NCBI GenBank assembly: GCA_023301465.1
Contig: JALZUQ010000007.1
Location: 1-64,000 of the forward strand
From: Oligoflexales bacterium
Lineage (GTDB): Bacteria > Bdellovibrionota_B > Oligoflexia > Oligoflexales > JALZUQ01
Length of the DNA stretch: 64,000 bases
Reading direction: 5' to 3'
The notes below the pieces were generated by a model. That model was not told the origin of the DNA. It made no database searches and saw only the letters and a list, made by a program, of their open reading frames with translations. Each line of letters begins with the position of its first letter. The first letter of the stretch is position 1. Of the stretch, positions 500 through 48,347 are shown piece after piece. The position numbers and the translations under genes were made by a program.

Positions 500-3127
500 T
501 TATGTCACACTGAGTGATTCCGATCCAGCACGCCCGTGGCATTTTTTATATTTTTTGCCAGATCCACATGGACAGGAATCGTTACGCCCAACCTTGGGTT
601 GTTCTCTCTTAAAGGTCTCAACAGCTTTTTGCTGGGATTGCCCGCCTCCAGAGCCGTTGTAAACAAGATTATCGTTATTGCTCGGGTCTTCAGAAGCCGG
701 GTGAGTCATTTCAAGGTCAGATAAGTCTTCTTCAGGTGCCGAAGTTTCAATCTCGTATTGCTCAGCGTTTTCAGGCAGTGGCAACCTTATGATGGCTAGT
801 GCCGTATCAAACTCAATGCGTTCGATCATGTCTGAAAAGGAACGAAAACCTTCTTTTTTGTACTCTTGGAGTGGGTCACGCTGTCCGTAACCTCTGAGGC
901 TCACGGCGTCACGTAGTTGGTCCATAGATTGAAGGTGGTCTTTCCACGCATTATCAATAACTTGCAAATACATGTGATGCTCAAATTGCTTAAGGCTGTC
1001 TTCTCCAAAAATTTTGAGTTTTCTTTGGTGTTGTTCCATAACTTTAGCAGTTGCGACTTTGGCGATCATGTCAGGGCTGGCACCGTTGACGTCCGTATTT
1101 TCTCTTTCAAGGTCATGTGAATTGATGCGAATCTCGTTTTGGAACTCTAGCTTCACTGCGTCTGCAATGGTGCCGAGTTCCCAGCTTTCAGAGTTGATGG
1201 CTTCAGGAGAATGCTTTTGGACAATCCCATAAGACATTTGGTTGATAGCATCTTCTAAGAAGTCTACGCCTTTGCCGTCTTTTAGTATGCCGTTTCGTTT
1301 TTTGTAGACGACCTGACGCTGTTGGTTCATGACGTCATCATATTCTAGTAGGTTTTTACGAGAAGAAAAGTTTTGTTCTTCGACGCGTTTTTGTGCTTTT
1401 TCAATCGCCCTTGTCACCATCGGTGAAACGATGGACTCTCCTTCTTTCATGCCTCGTTGCATAAAAGCAGAAACACGGTCAGAGGCAAAAATTCTCATCA
1501 GGTCATCTTCTAGCGATAGATAAAAAATACTACGTCCCGGATCACCTTGACGACCTGCACGGCCTCGAAGCTGGTTATCAATTCGTCTTGAGTCATGACG
1601 CTCACTACCGATCACAAGTAGGCCGCCAGCTTCACGCACGCCTTCACCAAGAACAATATCGGTACCACGACCGGCCATGTTGGTGGAGATGGTGACTGTT
1701 CCAAGGTTGCCAGCGTTTTTAACAATTTCAGCTTCACGAGCATGGTTTTTTGCATTGAGGATTTCGTGCGGAACGCCTAGCTTTTTGAGAAACGAAGATA
1801 AAAGCTCAGACTTTTCTACAGATACCGTGCCCACCAAAACCGGTTGTTTCTTTTTGTTTGCTTCGGCGATTTCTTCTGCAATGGCTTGAAACTTTTCGCG
1901 AGCAGACCTAAAGATTCCATCAGGCTCATCTTTTCTGATAAGAGGTTTGTTGGTTGGAATCACCACGACATCTAATTCATAGATTTTTTTGAATTCGACA
2001 GCTTCCGTGTCGGCGGTGCCCGTCATACCAGAAAGAGTTTCATACATTCTAAAGAGGTTTTGAAATGTAATGGTTGCCATGGTCTGAGATTCGTTTTGAA
2101 CCTTTACGTTTTCTTTTGCTTCAAGGGCTCCGTGAAGCCCATCACTGTAGCGTCTGCCGGGCATGAGGCGTCCCGTGAATTCATCAACAATCAAAATTTG
2201 GCCGTCTCTTACAACGTAGTCGACATCTTTTTTAAATATAAAATGTGCTTTGAGTGCTTGTTCCACGTGGTGAAGGTATTTGATGTTTTTTGGTTCGTAG
2301 AGGTTTTTGAGTTTCAGTCTTCTCTCGATTTTTGCGATACCGTCTTCTGTTAGCATGATGCTATTAGATTTTTCATCAATGATGTAATCGCTGTCTTTTT
2401 GAAGGCCGGGTATGGTTCTGTCAACAGTGTAATAAAGATCAGTGTCAGTCTCAGATGGTCCAGAAATAATAAGAGGTGTTCTTGCTTCATCAATTAAAAT
2501 CGAGTCGACCTCATCGACAATGGCAAAAAAGTGTCCTCTTTGCACCATGCGGTTCACATCGGTTTTCATGTTGTCTCTTAGAAAGTCAAAACCAAATTCG
2601 TTGTTGGTTCCGTAAGTAATATCACATGCGTATGCGTCTCTTCTTTGGGAGTCACTAAGGCCGTGGGTAATACAGTCAGTAGACATTCCAAGGAAGTTAT
2701 AGACCTTTCCCATCCACTCACTATCACGTTTCGCGAGGTAGTCATTGACGGTAACAACATGGGAGCCTTTTCCGGCTAAAGCATTCAGATAAACAGGAGC
2801 GGTAGCGGTAAGTGTTTTACCTTCACCGGTTTTCATTTCTGCAATATCACCACGGTGAAGAACAATTCCACCCACTAGCTGAACATCGTAATGTCTCATG
2901 CCAAGAACTCTAACGGCGGCCTCTCTACAAACAGCAAATGCTTCATTTAATATATCATCAAGAGTTTTACCCGAAGCGATCTTTTCTTTGAGAACGTTTG
3001 TTTGGTTTTGAAGCTCTTCATCACTCATAGCTTGATAGGTTGGTTCAAGCTTATTGATGTCTTCAACGGTTTTGAGGATTTTTTTAACTTCTCGGTCGTT
3101 TTTTGTTCCAAAGATTTTGCTTAACAT
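500..3127 (-). CDS. secA: Preprotein translocase ATPase SecA
   Basis: SecA is the cytoplasmic motor that drives unfolded preproteins through SecYEG. This 875-residue protein has the usual SecA length and layout: Walker A GEGKT at residues 101-105, the DEVD Walker B box at 205-208 followed by [16 protein letters not shown], the preprotein cross-linking domain, the second ATPase fold with GRGTDIVLG and [12 protein letters not shown], and a C-terminal zinc-binding tail with [14 protein letters not shown] that normally contacts SecB and lipids. All key motifs are intact. The ATG at 3127 gives the family N terminus (MLSKIFG). An acidic linker sits before the zinc tail. It is followed after 7 nt by a small membrane-protein gene. 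Confidence 0.98.
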
Positions 3128-3164
3128 GGTGTATCAACTCGCAAGTGATGGTTAACAGGTTCGA

Positions 3165-3184
3165 ATCATAGAGTGTTCTATGAT
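3165..3184. promoter_or_regulatory. 8-bp inverted repeat in the secA leader
   Basis: The arms ATCATAGA and TCTATGAT are perfect complements around a 4-nt loop. The repeat lies about 40 bp upstream of the secA ATG, in the 264-bp gap before the antitoxin gene. It could be a leader hairpin or an operator; nothing in the sequence decides between them. Confidence 0.35.
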
Positions 3185-3342
3185 GATCTAACCATAAGGT
3201 AAAGTCATCCTCTTAGCTGTCAATATGAGTAATTTCTGACCAGCCTCTGGTCGCATAGGTTGGAATAGAGGGGGAGGTTTGTTGGGAATATAAGCACTTG
3301 TAAGCTGAATGGTGAGACTCGGTTTATGTGTTTGTTGTCAAA

Positions 3343-3368
3343 GAAAAAAACGCCCTGCAGGACGTTCA
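3343..3368 (-). terminator. Rho-independent terminator of the toxin-antitoxin operon
   Basis: Read on the minus strand, a GC-rich near-palindrome (AACGTCC-TGCA-GGGCGTT, 3349-3366) is followed directly by seven T residues. It lies about 25 bp past the antitoxin stop codon. A closely similar terminator occurs at 4064-4090 on the other side of the same module. Confidence 0.75.
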
Positions 3369-3685: not shown

Positions 3686-3947
3686 GTGGGTTGACCTCCA
3701 ATACGTTTACGGTTATTTTTTTCTTATCGATATAGTAAAAAACTCGCCATTGATCATTAAGGTAAGAAGTGCGAACCCCTTTCCACTCACCTTTTAAGGC
3801 GTGATCATTATAGCCAGGCATTTTTCTGAGAGCATTAGGGCCTGAGAGACTCACAACGACCTTCCAAGTTTCGTACTCTTTTAAAATTCGTTTGGGGCAC
3901 TTACCGAGTTGTTTTTTAACTTTTTTATTTTCTAGTATTTGCCACAT
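3663..3947 (-). CDS. RelE/HigB-superfamily mRNA interferase toxin
   Basis: A 94-residue basic protein with the RelE/YafQ/HigB fold signature: Lys-rich N-terminal helices, then KGEWKGVRTSYLNDQWRVFY, IDKKKITVNVLEVNPHDY. Family members bind the ribosome and cleave mRNA; Arg/Tyr/His residues of the second half supply the active site and are present here (R-V-F-Y, H-D-Y). It overlaps the downstream XRE antitoxin by 23 nt. There is no Shine-Dalgarno sequence before the ATG; instead the start codon lies within an inverted repeat, which suggests weak or tightly repressed translation. Confidence 0.88.
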   Translation of the reverse strand: MWQILENKKVKKQLGKCPKRILKEYETWKVVVSLSGPNALRKMPGYNDHALKGEWKGVRTSYLNDQWRVFYYIDKKKITVNVLEVNPHDYRKKG

Positions 3948-3978
3948 TACTTAGTAGTAATATTATCATTAAGTAATG
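3945..3978. promoter_or_regulatory. Likely autoregulatory operator of the toxin-antitoxin module
   Basis: CATTACTTA at 3945-3953 and TAAGTAATG at 3970-3978 form a perfect 9-bp inverted repeat with a 16-bp AT-rich spacer. The left arm contains the toxin start codon (CAT on the plus strand). Operators overlapping the promoter and start are the rule for XRE-antitoxin autorepression; binding here is inferred. Confidence 0.55.
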
Positions 3979-4063
3979 TCAATCGTTGAAAAGGCATTCT
4001 ATGAAAATATTTTTAAAGAGCTCGCAAATTGTAAGTGGCTATTTTTACTTGAGATATTTTTTG

Positions 4064-4090
4064 AAAAAAACGCTCCGCAGGGCGTTCAAG
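4064..4090 (-). terminator. Rho-independent terminator downstream of the matrixin gene
   Basis: On the minus strand GAACGCCCTGCGGAGCGTT is followed by seven T residues. It lies about 110 bp beyond the stop of the matrixin lipoprotein gene and upstream of the toxin-antitoxin promoter. It resembles the 3343-3368 terminator. Confidence 0.7.
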
Positions 4091-5223: not shown

Positions 5224-7842
5224 GTGACACTTGAGTCTAAGACATATCAGCATCAGAGTTATGAAAGTAAATGGTATCAACAGTGGCTAGATAAAGGCTA
5301 CTTCACGGCAGATGCGAATAGCAAAAAACCTGCATACACAATTGTGATTCCTCCACCAAATGTGACTGATAGACTTCACATGGGACATGGTCTTAATAAT
5401 ACTATTCAAGATATATTGATTCGCTACAAAAGAATGACTGGTCATGAAGCTTGTTGGTTGCCGGGAACGGACCATGCTGGTATCGCCACACAAATGATGG
5501 TTGAAAAGTCTTTGGCAAAAGAAGGTAAAACAAAAACCCAAGTTGGCAGAAAAGCGTTTTTGCAGATGCTCCATGATTGGAAAGATAAAAACGGCGGGAT
5601 CATCATTGAACAACTAAAACGTTTAGGTTGTTCTGCAGATTGGAGTCGTGAAGCCTACACGATGGATCCAAAACTATCAGAAGCGGTTCGTGAAATATTT
5701 GTAAGACTCTATGAAGATGGTTTGATTTACCGAGGTAAAAGACTTGTCAACTGGGACCCGAAACTCTTAACGGCTATTTCTGATGACGAAGTAGAAAACA
5801 TAGACAAACAAGGTAAGATCTACCATTTTAAATACCCATTAAAAGATGGTGGTCACATTGAAATTGCAACCACTAGACCTGAGACACTTCTTGGTGATGC
5901 AGCGGTTGCAGTTCACCCAGAAGATGAACGCTACAAAGATCTAGTAGGAAAGATGGCAGTGGTTCCTTTTTGTAACCGAGAGATTCCCATCATTGCAGAT
6001 GAGTATGTAAAAATGGAGTTTGGTTCTGGAGCACTAAAGATTACTCCTGCCCATGATCATAATGACTTTGAAGTAGGTAAACGCCACGGTTTAGTTGCAA
6101 TCGATATTCTCAATAAAGATGCATCTTTAAATGATTCTGTGCCCGATGCTTATAGAGGCCTTGATCGTTTTGATGCCCGCGAAAAAATAGTAAAAGACTT
6201 AAAAACTTTAGATTTACTCGTAGAAATAAAATCTCACAAAATGTCTGTGCCTGTCTCATCGAGAAGTAAATCGGTGATAGAGCCAAAGCTTTCACTCCAG
6301 TGGTACGTAAATATGAAGGATTTAGCAGTCCCTGCAATAGAAGCTGCTAACAATGAAGATGTTCAGTTTTATCCTGCACTATGGAAAAAAACATGGTTGT
6401 ACTGGCTTGAAAACATTCAAGACTGGTGTATCTCAAGACAACTCTGGTGGGGACACCGCATTCCCATTTGGTATTGTGGCGATTGTGATCATGAGTTCAC
6501 CGCTAGAACCGACCCAGATGAGTGCCAAAAGTGTAAAAGTAAAAACATCAAGCAAGATGAAGATGTTCTCGACACTTGGTTTTCAAGCTGGTTGTGGCCC
6601 TTGTCTCCTTTTGGTTGGCCAGAAGAAACTCCGGATCTAAAAAAGTTTTTTCCGTCAAATGTTCTCGTAACAGGTGCTGATATTATTTTTCTTTGGGTGG
6701 CACGAATGGTCATGGTCAGCCAATATGTTTTCAAAAAGAACCCGTTTAAAGATGTGTATTTCAATAGTATTATCTGCGATAAAGACGGCAAGAAGTTCTC
6801 TAAAACCCTAGGAAACGGAATTGATCCACTTGAGATGATCGACGTACATGGAGCCGATGCGGTTCGTTATACATGTGTTAGCTTGGCTCCTCTAAAGGGT
6901 CGTGTTCGTATGGAAAAAGACGACTTTATTGTCGGTGCAAAATTTATGAATAAAATCTGGAACGCGACAAAGCTGTTGGTGAGCCTTTTAGGGAACGAAG
7001 CATCGGAGTCATTAGACGCCTCAAAAGTTTCCGAGCCTATAAAAGATCTTTTGTACCAGTATGATCAAGCTGTCATAGAGGTGCGTAGGAATATTGATAA
7101 CTACCGAATGAGCGACGCTATCAAAGTTTTCTATCAGTTTTTCTGGTATGAGTTTTGTGATTGGGGTTTGGAGTATGCAAAAATTCTTCATAAAAACCAA
7201 AAATTCCAAGCGGCAGATCAATCAGCGATGCTTTATATCTTCCAAGGCATGATGCGATTAGCTCACCCGTTTCTTCCTTTTATTACCGAAGAAATTCACT
7301 CTTATCTGCCATCTCATAAAGACTGGCAAAGCTCAGACTCTCTTTGTATTAGCTCGTTTCCAGAGGCAGGAAAGTTTAAACATGGTTCAAAGAAGTGGTC
7401 AGAGTCTAGAGTGTTGATTGCATCTATCAGAAAACTAAGAGCACAAACGAAACTAAAAAATGTAGACCTTGTTCACTATAGTGGTTTTAAAGAAGCCACT
7501 TCATTTATTCAAGACTCTCAAGAAGTTTTTTCTGCATTAGCAGGAGTTTCAAAATTAGAAATAAAGCCTCAAGGCATTCAAAATTGTTTAGTCGAAGTTT
7601 CCCGGCACGGTGAAGTGTTTCTTGGCATCCCTGAAAGCTTTGATGTTTCTGCAGAATTAGAAAGATTAAAAAAAGAGAGTGCTCGACTTCAAAAGATTTT
7701 ATTTGGAATTGAAAAAAAGCTATCAAATAAAAAGTTTGTGGATAATGCACCCGAAGATATTCTGACGAGCACTAAAGAGCAGTTTGAAAACCTGAGCACG
7801 CAAAAGCAAAGTGTGGAGAGGTCGATTCAGACTTTTGAGTGA
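5224..7842 (+). CDS. valS: Valyl-tRNA synthetase
   Basis: ValRS charges tRNA-Val. This 872-residue class I synthetase has the HIGH motif as HMGHG (residues 52-56, after PPPNVTDRL), the KMSKS motif as KFSKT (near residue 524), the editing-domain signature ATTRPETLLGDAAVAVHPED, the GTDHAGIATQ motif, DVLDTWFSSWLWP, and a C-terminal ~65-residue coiled-coil arm that is typical of ValRS. The start is GTG at 5224 with AGGAG at 5211-5215. The 192-bp upstream gap is shared with the divergent matrixin gene. I saw no T-box-like structure. Confidence 0.97.
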   Translation: MTLESKTYQHQSYESKWYQQWLDKGYFTADANSKKPAYTIVIPPPNVTDRLHMGHGLNNTIQDILIRYKRMTGHEACWLPGTDHAGIATQMMVEKSLAKEGKTKTQVGRKAFLQMLHDWKDKNGGIIIEQLKRLGCSADWSREAYTMDPKLSEAVREIFVRLYEDGLIYRGKRLVNWDPKLLTAISDDEVENIDKQGKIYHFKYPLKDGGHIEIATTRPETLLGDAAVAVHPEDERYKDLVGKMAVVPFCNREIPIIADEYVKMEFGSGALKITPAHDHNDFEVGKRHGLVAIDILNKDASLNDSVPDAYRGLDRFDAREKIVKDLKTLDLLVEIKSHKMSVPVSSRSKSVIEPKLSLQWYVNMKDLAVPAIEAANNEDVQFYPALWKKTWLYWLENIQDWCISRQLWWGHRIPIWYCGDCDHEFTARTDPDECQKCKSKNIKQDEDVLDTWFSSWLWPLSPFGWPEETPDLKKFFPSNVLVTGADIIFLWVARMVMVSQYVFKKNPFKDVYFNSIICDKDGKKFSKTLGNGIDPLEMIDVHGADAVRYTCVSLAPLKGRVRMEKDDFIVGAKFMNKIWNATKLLVSLLGNEASESLDASKVSEPIKDLLYQYDQAVIEVRRNIDNYRMSDAIKVFYQFFWYEFCDWGLEYAKILHKNQKFQAADQSAMLYIFQGMMRLAHPFLPFITEEIHSYLPSHKDWQSSDSLCISSFPEAGKFKHGSKKWSESRVLIASIRKLRAQTKLKNVDLVHYSGFKEATSFIQDSQEVFSALAGVSKLEIKPQGIQNCLVEVSRHGEVFLGIPESFDVSAELERLKKESARLQKILFGIEKKLSNKKFVDNAPEDILTSTKEQFENLSTQKQSVERSIQTFE

Positions 7843-40985: not shown

Positions 40986-42239
40986 ATGAACCGTTATGCT
41001 GAAACAATGAAAATATTAAACCTCTTGATTTTATGCAGTATTTTTTTTGAGCAGCCCCTTGGAGCTTGCCCTGTTTACCTTGGTCGTGGACAAGTAAAAC
41101 CTGAGCGTTTTACCAAAAGAAACCAACTAGCAGTATTTGCAAAATCAGGCTCTCAGTGGATTGCCATCCCCTTTCAAATAGACGAAAGAACGGCCAGACT
41201 AAAATTGGTTTTTCATTCTAACAAAAGCTGGTTGAATTCAAAAACGCATCCTCGTGATCGTATTTTATTTGAGTCTAATCAAGCTCACCCTAAAGTTACT
41301 AATTTTACAGGTTTTCCATGTGCATCAAAGTCTGTCTATGAAATAAAATACAAAAAAAACGGTAGTACTAGTTACGCATATGTTGCTTGGTGTAAGGGTG
41401 TTTCAAAAGTACCGGCAACCAAAAGAGAGCTGGAATATGACTTAGGTGTTGGGAGGGTGCGATCAAATAATTATGTTTACGACCTTAATAAAGCAAACTA
41501 CATGCTTTTTCACGCGATTTACGCAAATGATAAAAAAGGAAATTTTATAAAAGTAATCGAAAATTCGAATTTACATATTAAAGGAGATGTAAAAAACTTC
41601 TTAAACCTTAGGTTTGGATCTAATGATATAAAATCAACCTTAGAAGCTCACGAAAAATCCAGTATGGGTATTTTTGCAAGGATTGATTTTTTTCTTCATG
41701 TTCTGTTTTTTAAGGTTAAACTAAAACTTCTTACGGATATTAGTTTTTACAATACAAGTGCTCATATTCCCATGCGAGTGTCTTTGCCTGTGAATGGTTA
41801 TGACTATTTAAATATGGGGAGCAGGCTTTATTACTATTGGCAACTTTCAAAAGATAAGCCTTGGAAATTTAGAGCTAAAATGCCGGTTCACGGGTTAAAC
41901 GTCAAAAAATCAGAGGTGCTTAAGAAATACTGTAACCGTTATTATTGTCACTTTCGTTTAGATATTTACCATGGTGATATTAGTCTTCAGCTTCATTTTA
42001 ATATCAACAGACGTGTCGTTGATAAATTAGATTTTTATCCAACGATGGTAGACAACCGAGAACTCACAAAAGACAGGGTGGTTCGCTCTACTGACGGTAA
42101 AGATCATTTGGGTGTTTATTTTGAGGGTTCAAGGTTACCAAAAGGCAGTCATCCTTGGGACTTTTGGATGAAAGTAAATGATGATTCCAAAGACTCTTGT
42201 CCCACAAAACCGTTATCAACCAGAAAAATCAAAATCTAA
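40986..42239 (+). CDS. Exported protein of unknown function (417 aa)
   Basis: A signal peptide MKILNLLILCSIFFEQPLGA (from the internal ATG 41007, or slightly later than the outer start 40986) precedes a ~390-residue mature protein. It contains several Cys (CPVYLG, FPCAS, AWCKG, KKYCNRYYCHF) likely paired in the periplasm, and aromatic-rich strands. No known motif. It is divergent from queA and overlaps the 3' end of a small minus-strand gene by 4 bp. Confidence 0.7.
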   Translation: MNRYAETMKILNLLILCSIFFEQPLGACPVYLGRGQVKPERFTKRNQLAVFAKSGSQWIAIPFQIDERTARLKLVFHSNKSWLNSKTHPRDRILFESNQAHPKVTNFTGFPCASKSVYEIKYKKNGSTSYAYVAWCKGVSKVPATKRELEYDLGVGRVRSNNYVYDLNKANYMLFHAIYANDKKGNFIKVIENSNLHIKGDVKNFLNLRFGSNDIKSTLEAHEKSSMGIFARIDFFLHVLFFKVKLKLLTDISFYNTSAHIPMRVSLPVNGYDYLNMGSRLYYYWQLSKDKPWKFRAKMPVHGLNVKKSEVLKKYCNRYYCHFRLDIYHGDISLQLHFNINRRVVDKLDFYPTMVDNRELTKDRVVRSTDGKDHLGVYFEGSRLPKGSHPWDFWMKVNDDSKDSCPTKPLSTRKIKI

Positions 42240-43963: not shown

Positions 43964-44557
43964 TTAAGCAGAAACTCTTTGTTCTGTTCTGTACACTCTG
44001 TTTAAATAATTTTTGCCTTTTTCCAGATCATGGCAGTGACCACAATATGAAATGCCTCGATATGCTTTCGCATTAAAAAATATATTTTCACAACTTGGGC
44101 ATTGGTAAATATATTTTGATTCTTTTAGTAGTCTTGAGTGAATATGTACTTTTGTATCAACAGGTAGGTTTGTTTTTTCGAAGTCTTCCATTTTTTTGTA
44201 AAATCTAGCGGTGTGATTTGGGTCATACCAACAATCGTAAAGCCACTGATGAACAAGTTCATGAAAAATTGTATAAGGCATAAGGCTAGGGCAAGTGGCA
44301 AAATAAGTAAGGTTTAACCTCATTTTTCTTTCAAAAAGAAGTGATAGCCCAAGTTTAGATTTCATTCTTGTGCTGAACTCAATGACGAGGCCTGTTTTGA
44401 GGCTTCCTTCTTTTTGGTTTCTAAAAAAAGGCATAAATTTTAAAAAATAATGGTAAGCCATGGCATGTATTTCTTCACGACTCAAATGCTGGGTGACTTC
44501 CTCTTTATAAAGATGAGGATGATACCATGGACTATTAGGTGTGAGTATGGGTTCCAT
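43964..44557 (-). CDS. SprT-like zinc metalloprotein
   Basis: About 197 residues from ATG 44557 (MEPILTPN); the open frame to 44614 would overlap the upstream gene. The HELVH motif (TIFHELVHQWLYD) followed by HTARFYKKM matches the SprT-like metal site, and the C-terminal CPSC...CGHC pair forms a zinc ribbon, as in SprT/Spartan N-terminal family members. Bacterial SprT proteins are cytoplasmic and poorly characterised; Spartan in eukaryotes degrades DNA-protein crosslinks. It lies just downstream of the LuxE-LuxC fusion gene on the same strand, and their ends overlap slightly if the longer start is used. Confidence 0.82.
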   Translation of the reverse strand: MEPILTPNSPWYHPHLYKEEVTQHLSREEIHAMAYHYFLKFMPFFRNQKEGSLKTGLVIEFSTRMKSKLGLSLLFERKMRLNLTYFATCPSLMPYTIFHELVHQWLYDCWYDPNHTARFYKKMEDFEKTNLPVDTKVHIHSRLLKESKYIYQCPSCENIFFNAKAYRGISYCGHCHDLEKGKNYLNRVYRTEQRVSA

Positions 44558-44573
44558 GTTTTTATAATAGCAT

Positions 44574-46520
44574 TTACTCTGGGTAAAACAAAGGTTTCCC
44601 AAGGTGCTTGCCATTCCATAATGGGAATTGTGTGTTCTTTTGGTCTAGGGCGTATGTAATGGTGGGAGCTAAAGTTTTTTTGGCTTTTAAGAGACCGTCT
44701 CTGTTTTTGTATCGTAATAAATACACACCAAAATAATCACCGCCATGATTTGAAAGTAAGTTTGCATCTTTTAAAGATATCTCATGTACCCATGGCAAAT
44801 GAAGGTCCTTGGAAGCCTTGATGATAAAGGGTTTGTGGGCTTCTTGATAGCGGTGAGCTGCAAAGAGCCATTTAGAGTTGAGAGGATTGCCCCAGAAATT
44901 TTTAAAAGCTGTATGTAGCTTTTCAGTAAATTGATCAAATGACATATCATGTGGAGCAATAATAATTCTTGGGTTCATGCAGCCAGCTTGGCCTAGGTGA
45001 AAGACCTCTTCGCACAGCATATTAATTTTGCTCATATCCCCAGAGAATTCATATGCAGTTTGATGATGCCCCCAGAACACCCCTGAATTTTTTGAGGTTA
45101 ACTGATTTGCGTTTTGGGTATTGCCAAAAAACACAATTGGAATATCTATATTATTTTGAATGTAATAATTTTTTGGAATAGAAGAAACCTTGAGGCCGAT
45201 CTCTTTTAATGCGTGAACCATAAAATTGAGTAACGGCAGAGATGTGTCATTAGGTGTTTTTAGATGTATGTGTATATCTAGGCAATAAGCAATAAACAAG
45301 TGCTGCATGGTGGCGATAGAGTGGTTGCTGGGTGCAAGTAAAGCCCAAGCACCTTGGTATGTCGGATTTTTTTGGGAGGTAAAAGTAGCGTTTTCGCAAG
45401 CTTTGATCCAGTATTCTTGATCTTTAGGGATTGAATAAGTTAATAGCGACTCCAAAAATAAAACGGAGGCATTTAGAGAGCCAGTTTCTAGAGCAAAAAG
45501 TTCAGTTAGGTTTTGTAGGCGATTTTTCAAGAGCTCTAATATTTTAAGAGAGCGTTCTTTTATTTGTTGTTGGTTTATTTTTTTTGTAGTGGGTTTTTGT
45601 TTCGGGTAAGCTTTTCTTATATTTGTGTGTTTGTTCTTTAAAGAGCAACCTCTAGGTTGAGTGCCGTTAACTCTTCCTTTGATCTGAAATTGGTTGTTTT
45701 TAAGAAGTACCATGTCTTCTGTCTTAATAGCGTATGGATAGTCAGTTCTTTTTTTGTCCCAGACAACTAACCGGCCTAAACCCTCTTTTTTTAGTTCGTT
45801 GCTGCAATCATCTATAAACACATCGACATCTTCTTCAAAGGCGTAATGCTCACCAAAGACTTTATAAGCTTGCCGGCTTAATTCACAGCTTCCATATTCA
45901 CTCAATATTTTTTGGGGAGCGAAGTTTTTTGCGAGCATTTCATAGTATTCATGTAGATTTAAAAACGGTCGAGATTTTATGCCGCCTGTTTCAAATAAAA
46001 AAGCATTCTTTGGTATTCGGCTTCCATTTTCAATGAATTGTAAAATTTGCTCCCCTGTCGCAAAAATCCAAATAGGAGTTTTTGAGGAGGGGTTGCTTGG
46101 GATTGAAAATTTTTGATGGTCGACATATTGAATATTCGAGAGTTCCGAAAACCAATGAATCATTTGTGCCAATGAAGAGTCTTTCCAAACCTCAGTGGAT
46201 GGAATAAAACTGTATCCGTTGATTTTAGAGAATGTTTGATGAAGCTTTTTTTTGATGACTGCTTCAAAGTCGGTGGTAGATTTTCTTTGGTACTGTTTGA
46301 GGGACTCTTCAGAGTAAAATACCTCAGAGCGGTGTTCTGAGGTAGATCCAGATGACTTAAAAACAGACAGATTATCTCTCGTGCCTTGATAGATAAGGCT
46401 TTTGTAGGTCTTAAAGTAGCTTACAGGAATAACAGGTACCACTAGATTTTGACAACCCATGACTTGGATAAGCTGATCAATATCAGGTACTTGCCTATGA
46501 TTTGGTCCTTGTTGTGACAT
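44574..46520 (-). CDS. LuxE-LuxC fusion: acyl-protein synthetase joined to acyl-CoA reductase
   Basis: A 648-residue two-domain protein. The first half resembles LuxE acyl-protein synthetase: FKSSGSTSEHRSEVFYSEES (nucleotide loop, about residues 54-73), LFETGGIKSR and ILSEYGSCELSRQAY. A Lys-rich linker follows near residue 300-320. The second half resembles LuxC acyl reductase: GAWALLAPSNHSIATMQ and the nucleophile-Cys block CEEVFHLGQAGCMNPRIII (Cys near residue 511). In bioluminescent operons LuxE activates and LuxC reduces fatty acid to aldehyde; here both lie on one chain and no luciferase genes are near. The ATG at 46520 is preferred over the TTG at 46544. Product aldehyde use is unknown. 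Confidence 0.82.
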   Translation of the reverse strand: MSQQGPNHRQVPDIDQLIQVMGCQNLVVPVIPVSYFKTYKSLIYQGTRDNLSVFKSSGSTSEHRSEVFYSEESLKQYQRKSTTDFEAVIKKKLHQTFSKINGYSFIPSTEVWKDSSLAQMIHWFSELSNIQYVDHQKFSIPSNPSSKTPIWIFATGEQILQFIENGSRIPKNAFLFETGGIKSRPFLNLHEYYEMLAKNFAPQKILSEYGSCELSRQAYKVFGEHYAFEEDVDVFIDDCSNELKKEGLGRLVVWDKKRTDYPYAIKTEDMVLLKNNQFQIKGRVNGTQPRGCSLKNKHTNIRKAYPKQKPTTKKINQQQIKERSLKILELLKNRLQNLTELFALETGSLNASVLFLESLLTYSIPKDQEYWIKACENATFTSQKNPTYQGAWALLAPSNHSIATMQHLFIAYCLDIHIHLKTPNDTSLPLLNFMVHALKEIGLKVSSIPKNYYIQNNIDIPIVFFGNTQNANQLTSKNSGVFWGHHQTAYEFSGDMSKINMLCEEVFHLGQAGCMNPRIIIAPHDMSFDQFTEKLHTAFKNFWGNPLNSKWLFAAHRYQEAHKPFIIKASKDLHLPWVHEISLKDANLLSNHGGDYFGVYLLRYKNRDGLLKAKKTLAPTITYALDQKNTQFPLWNGKHLGKPLFYPE

Positions 46521-46578
46521 TGCAATTGCCCCATCTACGTGCAAAGGCTACGATGTTCCAGTGTTTAACCTGCAATGA

Positions 46579-47415
46579 GTGAAGATGCCAAGTCGATATT
46601 TTCTCAAACTTGATCAGTTTGAAGGCCCGTTGGACCTACTGCTGCACCTTATTAAAGATAATGAAATAGATGTCTTTGATATTGATATTTATATGCTGTC
46701 GACTCAGTACTTAAACTATCTTCGTCTCATTAAGTTTGATGATCTTAGTGATGCTGGTGATTTTCTTTCTATGGCAGCACATCTAATCGAAATCAAAACG
46801 CAGATGCTACTTCCAAGACCAAAGAGCAAAGATACGGATGACGGTGATGACCCGCGTCTTCCTCTTCAAGAGCGTTTACTCTTATACGAAAAATTCAAAG
46901 ACGCCGGTGCAAATATTGGGAAACTACCTATGGTGGGTTACCTCGTCTGGGCAAGTACAGATCATAAACGCCTAGACGCAATGGTTGAAAAACCAAAAGA
47001 CGCACCTGTCAAAGCAGACCCGAGTCGTTTAATTGTTCTGTACGAACAAATGCTTAAGAATATGAACCTTCGCCGCAAACCATCAAAGGTGACCATCAAA
47101 AACCAGGTCATCGGCATTGAAACGGTGATTGAACAAATGCAAAAACGAATTGAAAAACTTCGGTTTGTGATGTTTCAAAATTTGTACTCAAGGTTTTCGT
47201 CTCGTTATGAGTTTGTCATTAACATCATGGCGATGCTTGAGCTTGCAAAGTACGGTGATTTAAAAGTTTATCAAGACCGTATCTTTGGACCAATTTGGCT
47301 ATTTAAACAAGATGAACTCGTTGAGTATGTAGACTTAAATACAGACTTAGACCAGTTTGATCCAGAAGCATTGGCGGTTGCCATCTCTGAACTTCAAGGA
47401 GAAAAAGTCATATGA
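46579..47415 (+). CDS. scpA: Segregation and condensation protein ScpA
   Basis: ScpA is the kleisin of the SMC-ScpAB complex. The 278-residue protein has the canonical N-terminal FEGPLDLLLHLIKDNEIDVFDIDI and YLNYLR, AAHLIEIKTQMLLP, and a C-terminal winged-helix region (FLELL-type, here FVINIMAMLELAKYGDLKVYQ, split over LELAKYG). Start GTG 46579 or ATG 46585. It overlaps scpB by 4 nt (ATGA). Confidence 0.95.
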   Translation: MKMPSRYFLKLDQFEGPLDLLLHLIKDNEIDVFDIDIYMLSTQYLNYLRLIKFDDLSDAGDFLSMAAHLIEIKTQMLLPRPKSKDTDDGDDPRLPLQERLLLYEKFKDAGANIGKLPMVGYLVWASTDHKRLDAMVEKPKDAPVKADPSRLIVLYEQMLKNMNLRRKPSKVTIKNQVIGIETVIEQMQKRIEKLRFVMFQNLYSRFSSRYEFVINIMAMLELAKYGDLKVYQDRIFGPIWLFKQDELVEYVDLNTDLDQFDPEALAVAISELQGEKVI

Positions 47416-48347
47416 CAGATCAAAACAATCATGTTGAACCAAACGAAGAGTTACTTGAAGAAGTGATTGACGAGTCTGCTGTTCAGGCAGAAGAGGCGTA
47501 CGAATCAACGGATGAAGAAACAGAGCTAGAAGCTGGTGCTGAGGAATCTTCTGAGGTTGAAACAGGTGAAACAAAAGCTGAAGAAGAACCAGAAGAAGAG
47601 TATACTTGTGATTTAAATACTCTTGCACAGGTAGAGGCGTTACTTCTTGCGTCTACAAAACCAATGAAGATACCAGAGATTGCCGATTACTTAACTGAAG
47701 ACTTAGATCATCAGTCTATTAAGTATTTGATTGAAGAGCTTCAAGAATCCTATTCTGAGCGTGAGAGTGGAATCGAAGTAGCATCTATTAAGGGTCAAGG
47801 TTACCGAATTCAAACAAGACCTGAAGCGGCTCCTTTGATGCAGCGACTATTTGCCTGTAGGCCAAGACCGCTATCTAGGTCTGCACAAGAAACGATTGCT
47901 ATTATTGTTTACCGTCAACCTGTGACGAGATCTGAAATCGAATTTATCCGTGGTGTAGATGCAGGGAGTATCGTTAAGAGCCTCATGGACCGTGGATTTG
48001 TAAAATGCGTGGGTAGAAAAGACGTTCCGGGACGACCTATGCTCTTTGGGACAACCGACGAATTTCTGAGGGTTTTTGGGTTATCCTCCATCAAGGAATT
48101 GCCGAATCTAGAGAGCTTCCAGAGCCAAGATGAGGTCTTAAACCAAGCTGAGAAGGCAATAGAGCGATTTGATCGAGAAGAAGCTGGCGAAGAAGTTCCT
48201 GACGTGTTAGAGCCCAATCTGGAGCAAGTTGCTGATGACACTGATGCCAAGGCCGTTTTAGATGCGGTAGAGGTCCCAGATGAAGTCAAGGAGCTTGAAG
48301 CCCAAACAAAAAGAGGCGAAGGTCTCATCAACGAAGTTTTAGATTAA
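47412..48347 (+). CDS. scpB: Segregation and condensation protein ScpB
   Basis: ScpB binds the ScpA kleisin. The core (about residues 70-240) has VEALLLASTKPMKIPEIA, GYRIQTRPEAAPLMQRL, RPLSRSAQETIAIIVYRQPVTRSEIEFIRGVD, and RPMLFGTTDEFLRVFGL. Unusually, about 65 very acidic residues precede the core and another ~70 acidic residues follow it, so the 311-residue protein is longer than typical (~200). It overlaps scpA and is followed by rluB. Confidence 0.94.
   Translation: MTDQNNHVEPNEELLEEVIDESAVQAEEAYESTDEETELEAGAEESSEVETGETKAEEEPEEEYTCDLNTLAQVEALLLASTKPMKIPEIADYLTEDLDHQSIKYLIEELQESYSERESGIEVASIKGQGYRIQTRPEAAPLMQRLFACRPRPLSRSAQETIAIIVYRQPVTRSEIEFIRGVDAGSIVKSLMDRGFVKCVGRKDVPGRPMLFGTTDEFLRVFGLSSIKELPNLESFQSQDEVLNQAEKAIERFDREEAGEEVPDVLEPNLEQVADDTDAKAVLDAVEVPDEVKELEAQTKRGEGLINEVLD

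Follow-up and report, generated by a model that had tools for sequence, protein, structure and literature searches.

A compact LuxE-LuxC fusion protein encoded at a housekeeping locus throughout a non-luminous bacterial phylum

INTRODUCTION

LuxE and LuxC have been discussed almost always as light-organ enzymes. LuxE Cys364 and the matching cysteine of LuxC are the acyl carriers, as established by Photobacterium and Vibrio biochemistry. The kind of each domain is already known (PF04443 for LuxE and PF05893 for LuxC), as is the two-subunit LuxC-LuxE complex, whose structure has been solved (PDB 7xc6). Carboxylic acid reductases (CAR) follow an adenylate-thioester-reduce logic in a single chain, in which a phosphopantetheine carrier domain is paired with an SDR-type reductase. 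Vibrio cholerae RfbN is probably a LuxE/LuxC fusion. RfbN, which belongs to O-antigen tetronate synthesis, is described with a LuxE domain (PMC4772473).

Here we describe a LuxE-LuxC fusion that is new in being compact, vertically inherited, phylum-wide and located among housekeeping genes. In the literature searched, we found no paper on this LuxE-LuxC fusion or on LuxE/LuxC genes behind a TPP riboswitch, which is not proof that there is none.

RESULTS

The window, the 64,000-nucleotide stretch that we analyzed, is part of a 2.77-Mb Oligoflexales genome (G000). The Silvanigrellaceae belong to the same class. The fused gene lies in a single uninterrupted minus-strand frame (ORF 44574..46544), with an in-frame TTG at 46544 upstream of the ATG (Table 1). 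The protein consists of a LuxE/PaaK-type adenylating domain (the first ~295 residues) and an ALDH-fold LuxC-type reductase (the last ~335). A preliminary description had placed LuxE and LuxC domains in one polypeptide, and the 648-aa ORF, the family profiles and the predicted folds bear this out. The motifs it had named are all present: FKSSGSTS (residues 54 to 61), LFETGG (175 to 180), YGSCEL (209 to 214) and GQAGCMNP (510 to 517).

Table 1. Features of the fused gene and its neighbors in the window, and TPP riboswitches at separate luxE-luxC loci
Locus	Feature	Position	Strand	Remarks
Window	Fused LuxE-LuxC CDS	44574..46520	-	648 aa, ATG at 46520, stop included
Window	LuxE / PaaK-type adenylating (ANL) domain	45636..46439	-	Residues 28-295; hhalign, Foldseek, PDB 7xc6_E
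Window	LuxC / ALDH-fold acyl reductase domain	44577..45587	-	Residues 312-648; hhalign, Foldseek, PDB 7xc6_A
Window	FKSSGS, ATP/AMP loop	46344..46361	-	F54, S56, S57, G58 invariant (alignments A1, A2)
Window	ETGG motif	45981..45992	-	Residues 177-180; T178, G179, G180 invariant (alignments A1, A2)
Window	YGSCEL, ANL 'YGxxE' motif	45879..45896	-	Residues 209-214; Y209, E213 invariant (alignments A1, A2)
Window	Cys292 in RGCSL	45645..45647	-	Predicted LuxE acyl-carrying cysteine; alignment with 7xc6 LuxE C364
Window	Hinge	45588..45647	-	Residues 292-311; low pLDDT; little conserved except GCSL
Window	Cys514 in GQAGCMNP	44979..44981	-	Invariant; predicted LuxC/ALDH nucleophile
Window	scpA + scpB, divergent	46579..48347	+	Conserved neighbors on one side
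Window	SprT-like metallopeptidase gene	43964..44614	-	Conserved neighbor on the other side; 41-nt ORF overlap with fusion end
L153	TPP riboswitch	7598-7724		luxE at 7824
L154	TPP riboswitch	7497-7629		luxE at 7782; ABC transporter also there
L155	TPP riboswitch	1390-1497		NCS2 permease also there
L156	TPP riboswitch	5644-5752		luxE at 5815; ABC transporter also there
L165	TPP riboswitches	3784-4080		Two in tandem
L166	TPP riboswitch	5743-5870
L167	TPP riboswitch	5773-5902		luxE at 5971
L168	TPP riboswitch	5792-5921

The preliminary description had proposed a Pfam search as a check on the two halves. The window protein by itself fell below the cut-offs of both PF04443 and PF05893, and it matched no NCBIfam model. 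On the terms set by the preliminary description, a half without a Pfam match would count as a refutation. But orthologous fused ORFs exceeded the PF04443 cut-off in three genomes (G050, G035 and G011) and the PF05893 cut-off, around the Cys region, in G009, G031, G034, G023, G011, G015 and others. A single-sequence search of the PDB with the window protein gave noise only, and a scan of genome contigs with that protein alone gave no match; an alignment-based scan did. When a profile of 31 orthologues (alignment A1) was run against 177,635 PDB sequences, just two chains fell within an E value of 1, namely, LuxE (5e-9) and LuxC (1e-4) of 7xc6, the former matching the N-half and the latter the C-half. 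Profile-profile comparison with hhalign paired canonical LuxE with the N-half at 99.6% and canonical LuxC with the C-half at 98.9%. In view of these family-level tests, the missed Pfam cut-offs are probably a matter of sensitivity.

Structure prediction of the two halves, also proposed earlier, agreed with these assignments. The AlphaFold model had a moderate pLDDT of 79.6 over the full length and 84.7 for the N-half, and Foldseek matched the N-half to PaaK/ANL enzymes and the C-half to ALDHs. The solved structures nearest to the N-domain are PaaK-type ligases of aryl or other small acids. No carrier or SDR domain was found in the window protein by Pfam.

The fusion shares with the lux complex both catalytic folds, the ATP loop, the YGxxE-type motifs, the C-terminal LuxE cysteine (KGCSL/RGCSL) and, in register, the LuxC nucleophile (GQxxC/DQxxC context). 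It differs in being one chain rather than separate subunits, in having no luxA/B/D, in its genomic setting, in the shortening of both domains and, for the window protein, in falling below the Pfam cut-offs. The fused domains measure ~300 and 343 aa, versus 370 to 373 and 477 to 480 in lux operons. By sequence, the fusion lacks a counterpart to the first ~150 residues of LuxC, and alignments begin at LuxC residue ~148 to 154. AlphaFold predicts four helices in the fused chain where this region would be.

Twelve residues are invariant in the 31 sequences: F54, S56, S57, G58, T178, G179, G180, Y209, E213, C292, G513 and C514. Thus both the ATP loop and the nucleophile Cys, on which the preliminary description had staked its domain calls, are conserved across the orthologues. 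When alignment A1 is set against 7xc6, C292 pairs with the cysteine of KGCSL in LuxE, at chain position 364, and C514 pairs with that of QQACFST in LuxC. The plasmid-borne luxCDE genes of a lux operon (L169) have the same cysteine register, with KGCAL in LuxE and DQRACFSA in LuxC. The reductase half evolves fast, with a mean column identity of 25%; the best conserved positions in alignments A1 and A2 are the catalytic cysteines and the adenylation motifs.

In the full-length model, residues 292 to 301 have a pLDDT below 50 (mean, 43), the only such stretch besides the N-terminal tail, and residues 302 to 310 are still low. This low-confidence hinge starts exactly at the acyl cysteine and continues into the LuxC domain. 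In both natural two-gene forms of the protein, LuxE ends a few residues after GCSL. The low-pLDDT segment from C292 and the splits right behind GCSL therefore suggest that the LuxE cysteine is carried at the junction by a mobile arm, which is what one would expect of a swinging thioester relay.

The window protein used as a query found a match in 50 of 56 relatives, and the alignment used as a query found the gene in 52 of 58 genomes of the phylum (Oligoflexales/Silvanigrellales). Genomes without it include G013, G018, G021 and G033. Our reading of the open frames gave one frame in ~48 of the 52 carriers, a two-gene form in two genomes (G027 and G029) and broken frames in two draft genomes (MAGs G039 and G040). 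The two genes are overlapping ORFs in G027 (locus L088), and in G029 the halves lie on separate contigs. The window protein is divergent, with 18 to 28% identity to its orthologues in alignment A1. A LuxE-domain tree unites the fused proteins and the two splits in one clade (support 99/89), with the splits nested inside, and sets them apart from the separate LuxE proteins of Verrucomicrobiota, Bacteroidota, Rhodothermota, Hydrogenedentota and others. A second LuxE tree, computed without the two split forms, again placed the fused set in one clade (99/96), with plasmid LuxE genes falling elsewhere. The simplest reading is a single fusion at the base of the phylum, followed by at least two splits. 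We are unsure where the long branch of the window protein belongs within the fusion clade.

The preliminary description had also suggested a survey of gene neighborhoods among the homologues, and this revealed conserved genes around the fusion. Across the phylum the fusion mostly adjoins scpA/scpB. The usual order in Oligoflexales is FAA hydrolase - rluB - scpB - scpA, divergent from the fusion, and then sprT - M14 peptidase, with queA. These conserved neighbors are housekeeping genes, and none of them is a lipid gene. A 417-aa protein without a Pfam or NCBIfam match (window 40986-42239, plus strand; cluster 11) is kept near queA in ~15 Oligoflexales loci.

The whole genome of the window contains no luciferase-type gene (PF00296), so the earlier statement that there is no luciferase holds well beyond the window, and it contains no second LuxE or LuxC besides the fusion. 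We also looked for PF10520 (plasmalogen/lipid desaturase) and PF03007 (wax ester synthase), which mark sinks for fatty aldehydes and fatty alcohols and are just two among the possible ones. Both are absent from this genome. PF10520 was over its cut-off in 9 of 56 genomes, 7 of them Silvanigrellaceae, and PF03007 was present in 3 of 56.

The LuxE domains closest to the fusion come from separate luxE-luxC pairs (hmm E values mostly 1e-43 to 1e-68). Such pairs occur in non-luminous Verrucomicrobiota, Bacteroidota, Rhodothermota, Hydrogenedentota and Binatota and on plasmids (Pantoea, Azospirillum and others). They are two genes, adjacent or overlapping in many cases, where the fusion is one, and unlike the fusion, several have MFS/ABC/NCS2 transporter, SDR or PTPS neighbors and some have a TPP riboswitch. 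A gene of the 6-pyruvoyl tetrahydropterin synthase (PTPS) family follows luxE-luxC in ~15 Verrucomicrobiota loci (L096, L098, L104, L106, L136 and others), some with an MFS gene in between. At L103, L105, L118, L119, L133, L135 and L139, the surroundings of the separate pair include a class-III aminotransferase gene, hinting at an aldehyde-to-amine conversion in those lineages.

TPP riboswitches (Table 1) lie upstream of plasmid luxE-luxC pairs in Pantoea, Azospirillum, Lactiplantibacillus, Priestia, Niallia and Pseudomonas. The matches exceed the gathering score in all of these genera except Priestia, where the match is just under it (49 bits; E, 1.5e-6). Where annotated, an SDR gene follows these pairs, either directly or beyond transporter genes. 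This arrangement suggests that the TPP-linked LuxE/LuxC/SDR sets convert a thiamin-related carboxylate to its alcohol, as in thiamin salvage. With such plasmid cassettes behind TPP riboswitches, LuxE/LuxC chemistry is therefore probably not confined to fatty acids. At the Oligoflexia loci scanned, the fusion has no upstream TPP riboswitch, and it falls outside the clade of these cassettes.

DISCUSSION

From the conserved residues, we consider it quite probable that the fused protein reduces carboxylic acids by itself, at the expense of ATP and NAD(P)H, through a cysteine-to-cysteine thioester relay in one chain. In this mechanism, the N-domain would adenylate a carboxylic acid, and the acyl group would then move to the domain's own Cys292 on the flexible arm that ends it. 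The arm would then pass the thioester on to Cys514 in the C-domain, and hydride transfer there would free the aldehyde. We infer these steps of adenylation, relay and reduction from LuxE/LuxC biochemistry. The idea that one chain channels an acyl group to aldehyde, put forward in the preliminary description, is thus a good inference from the conserved residues, with the catalysis itself a prediction.

The single-chain adenylate-thioester-reduce logic would be shared with CAR. In the fusion, however, a cysteine arm takes the place of the carrier domain and an ALDH-type reductase that of the SDR-type reductase. The contrast drawn earlier, separate subunits in lux operons and a fusion here, is right, yet the fusion has a probable precedent in RfbN. 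RfbN, compared here by description only, belongs to an accessory O-antigen cluster, whereas the Oligoflexales fusion occupies a housekeeping locus.

Because this locus is fixed and retention is near-universal, the pattern suggests a role in a basic metabolite or a membrane component rather than in light or a mobile accessory trait. Almost the whole phylum, which does not glow, keeps the gene as a fixed housekeeping gene; therefore, the aldehyde probably serves some basic purpose.

By analogy with lux, a fatty acid would be the default substrate. In this specific form of our explanation, the enzyme would turn long-chain fatty acids into fatty aldehydes, as precursors of fatty alcohols, amines or ether lipids in the envelope. 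Among proteins with a known function, the subunits of the lux fatty acid reductase are indeed the closest. A membrane component would fit the near-universal retention, and an aminotransferase gene is close to several separate pairs in other phyla. However, the conserved neighborhood lacks a lipid gene, PF10520 and PF03007 are missing from the genome, and the N-domain most resembles ligases of aryl or other small acids. We regard the fatty-acid form as quite possible, if somewhat short of an even chance. The fate first proposed for the aldehyde, an envelope or signaling lipid, is not supported by the housekeeping neighbors or by these two sinks, which are rare in the order; for the branch of two-gene relatives, the TPP-riboswitch sets point away from lipids. 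A rival to be taken seriously, given the different gene settings of relatives outside the phylum, is a small or heterocyclic carboxylate, such as a cofactor- or vitamin-type acid; an acid of this kind is probably the substrate of the TPP-linked relatives. The riboswitches on plasmids of six genera, the pterin-enzyme gene in the ~15 Verrucomicrobiota loci and the PaaK-like fold argue for it. Against it, the second tree separates the fused clade from the TPP-linked clade, no Oligoflexia locus scanned has a TPP riboswitch near the fused gene, and the genome's own TPP riboswitch is elsewhere, before a transporter-like ORF. In addition, retention of the fusion does not track thiC, and FolB is mostly present. 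We hold the small-acid substrate to be possible, but only tentatively. A bolder combination, in which a carrier-free, cysteine-arm, single-chain carboxylic acid reductase has a housekeeping role throughout the phylum, acting on a non-fatty cofactor- or vitamin-type carboxylate and serving neither lipids nor light, seems to us rather unlikely, though worth stating.

Two readings would deny the fusion an enzymatic role or its existence. Low overall identity and the fast-evolving reductase half might indicate a dead, non-catalytic relic with a structural or regulatory role, but the positions conserved best are precisely the catalytic ones, and we judge a relic very improbable. A frame error, the concern raised in the preliminary description, or an assembly artefact might have joined two genes, as could be suspected from the two-gene forms and the broken frames in the two MAGs. 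However, a frame error or chance join is for practical purposes excluded, because ~48 genomes, at 18 to 28% identity to the window protein, have the single ORF in common.

The LuxE-LuxC fusion is a core gene in a phylum that does not glow and has cultured genera, Fluviispira among them, in which its role is testable by deleting the gene. For biocatalysis, an acid reductase that consists of one chain and works without phosphopantetheine activation would be useful. The TPP riboswitches before separate LuxE/LuxC/SDR sets suggest that vitamin metabolism, too, uses LuxE/LuxC chemistry.

We rejected thiamin salvage as the leading idea for the fused gene on the grounds of riboswitch position, clade and retention independent of thiC. 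A folate/pterin route replacing FolB was also rejected, since 47 of 56 genomes have FolB. No ThiC was found in the genome of the window. Its one TPP riboswitch (L170, 1856-1958) overlaps the listed start of a 484-aa ORF (1914-3368) that reads like a sodium:solute symporter, perhaps for thiamin uptake.

A few Oligoflexales have, in addition to the LuxE-LuxC fusion, a second, canonical LuxE gene adjacent to a LuxC gene. At L046 (142-2964, minus strand), the LuxC frame, of 941 aa, also has a C-terminal AMP-binding domain. Similar long frames occur at L044, L047 and L048.
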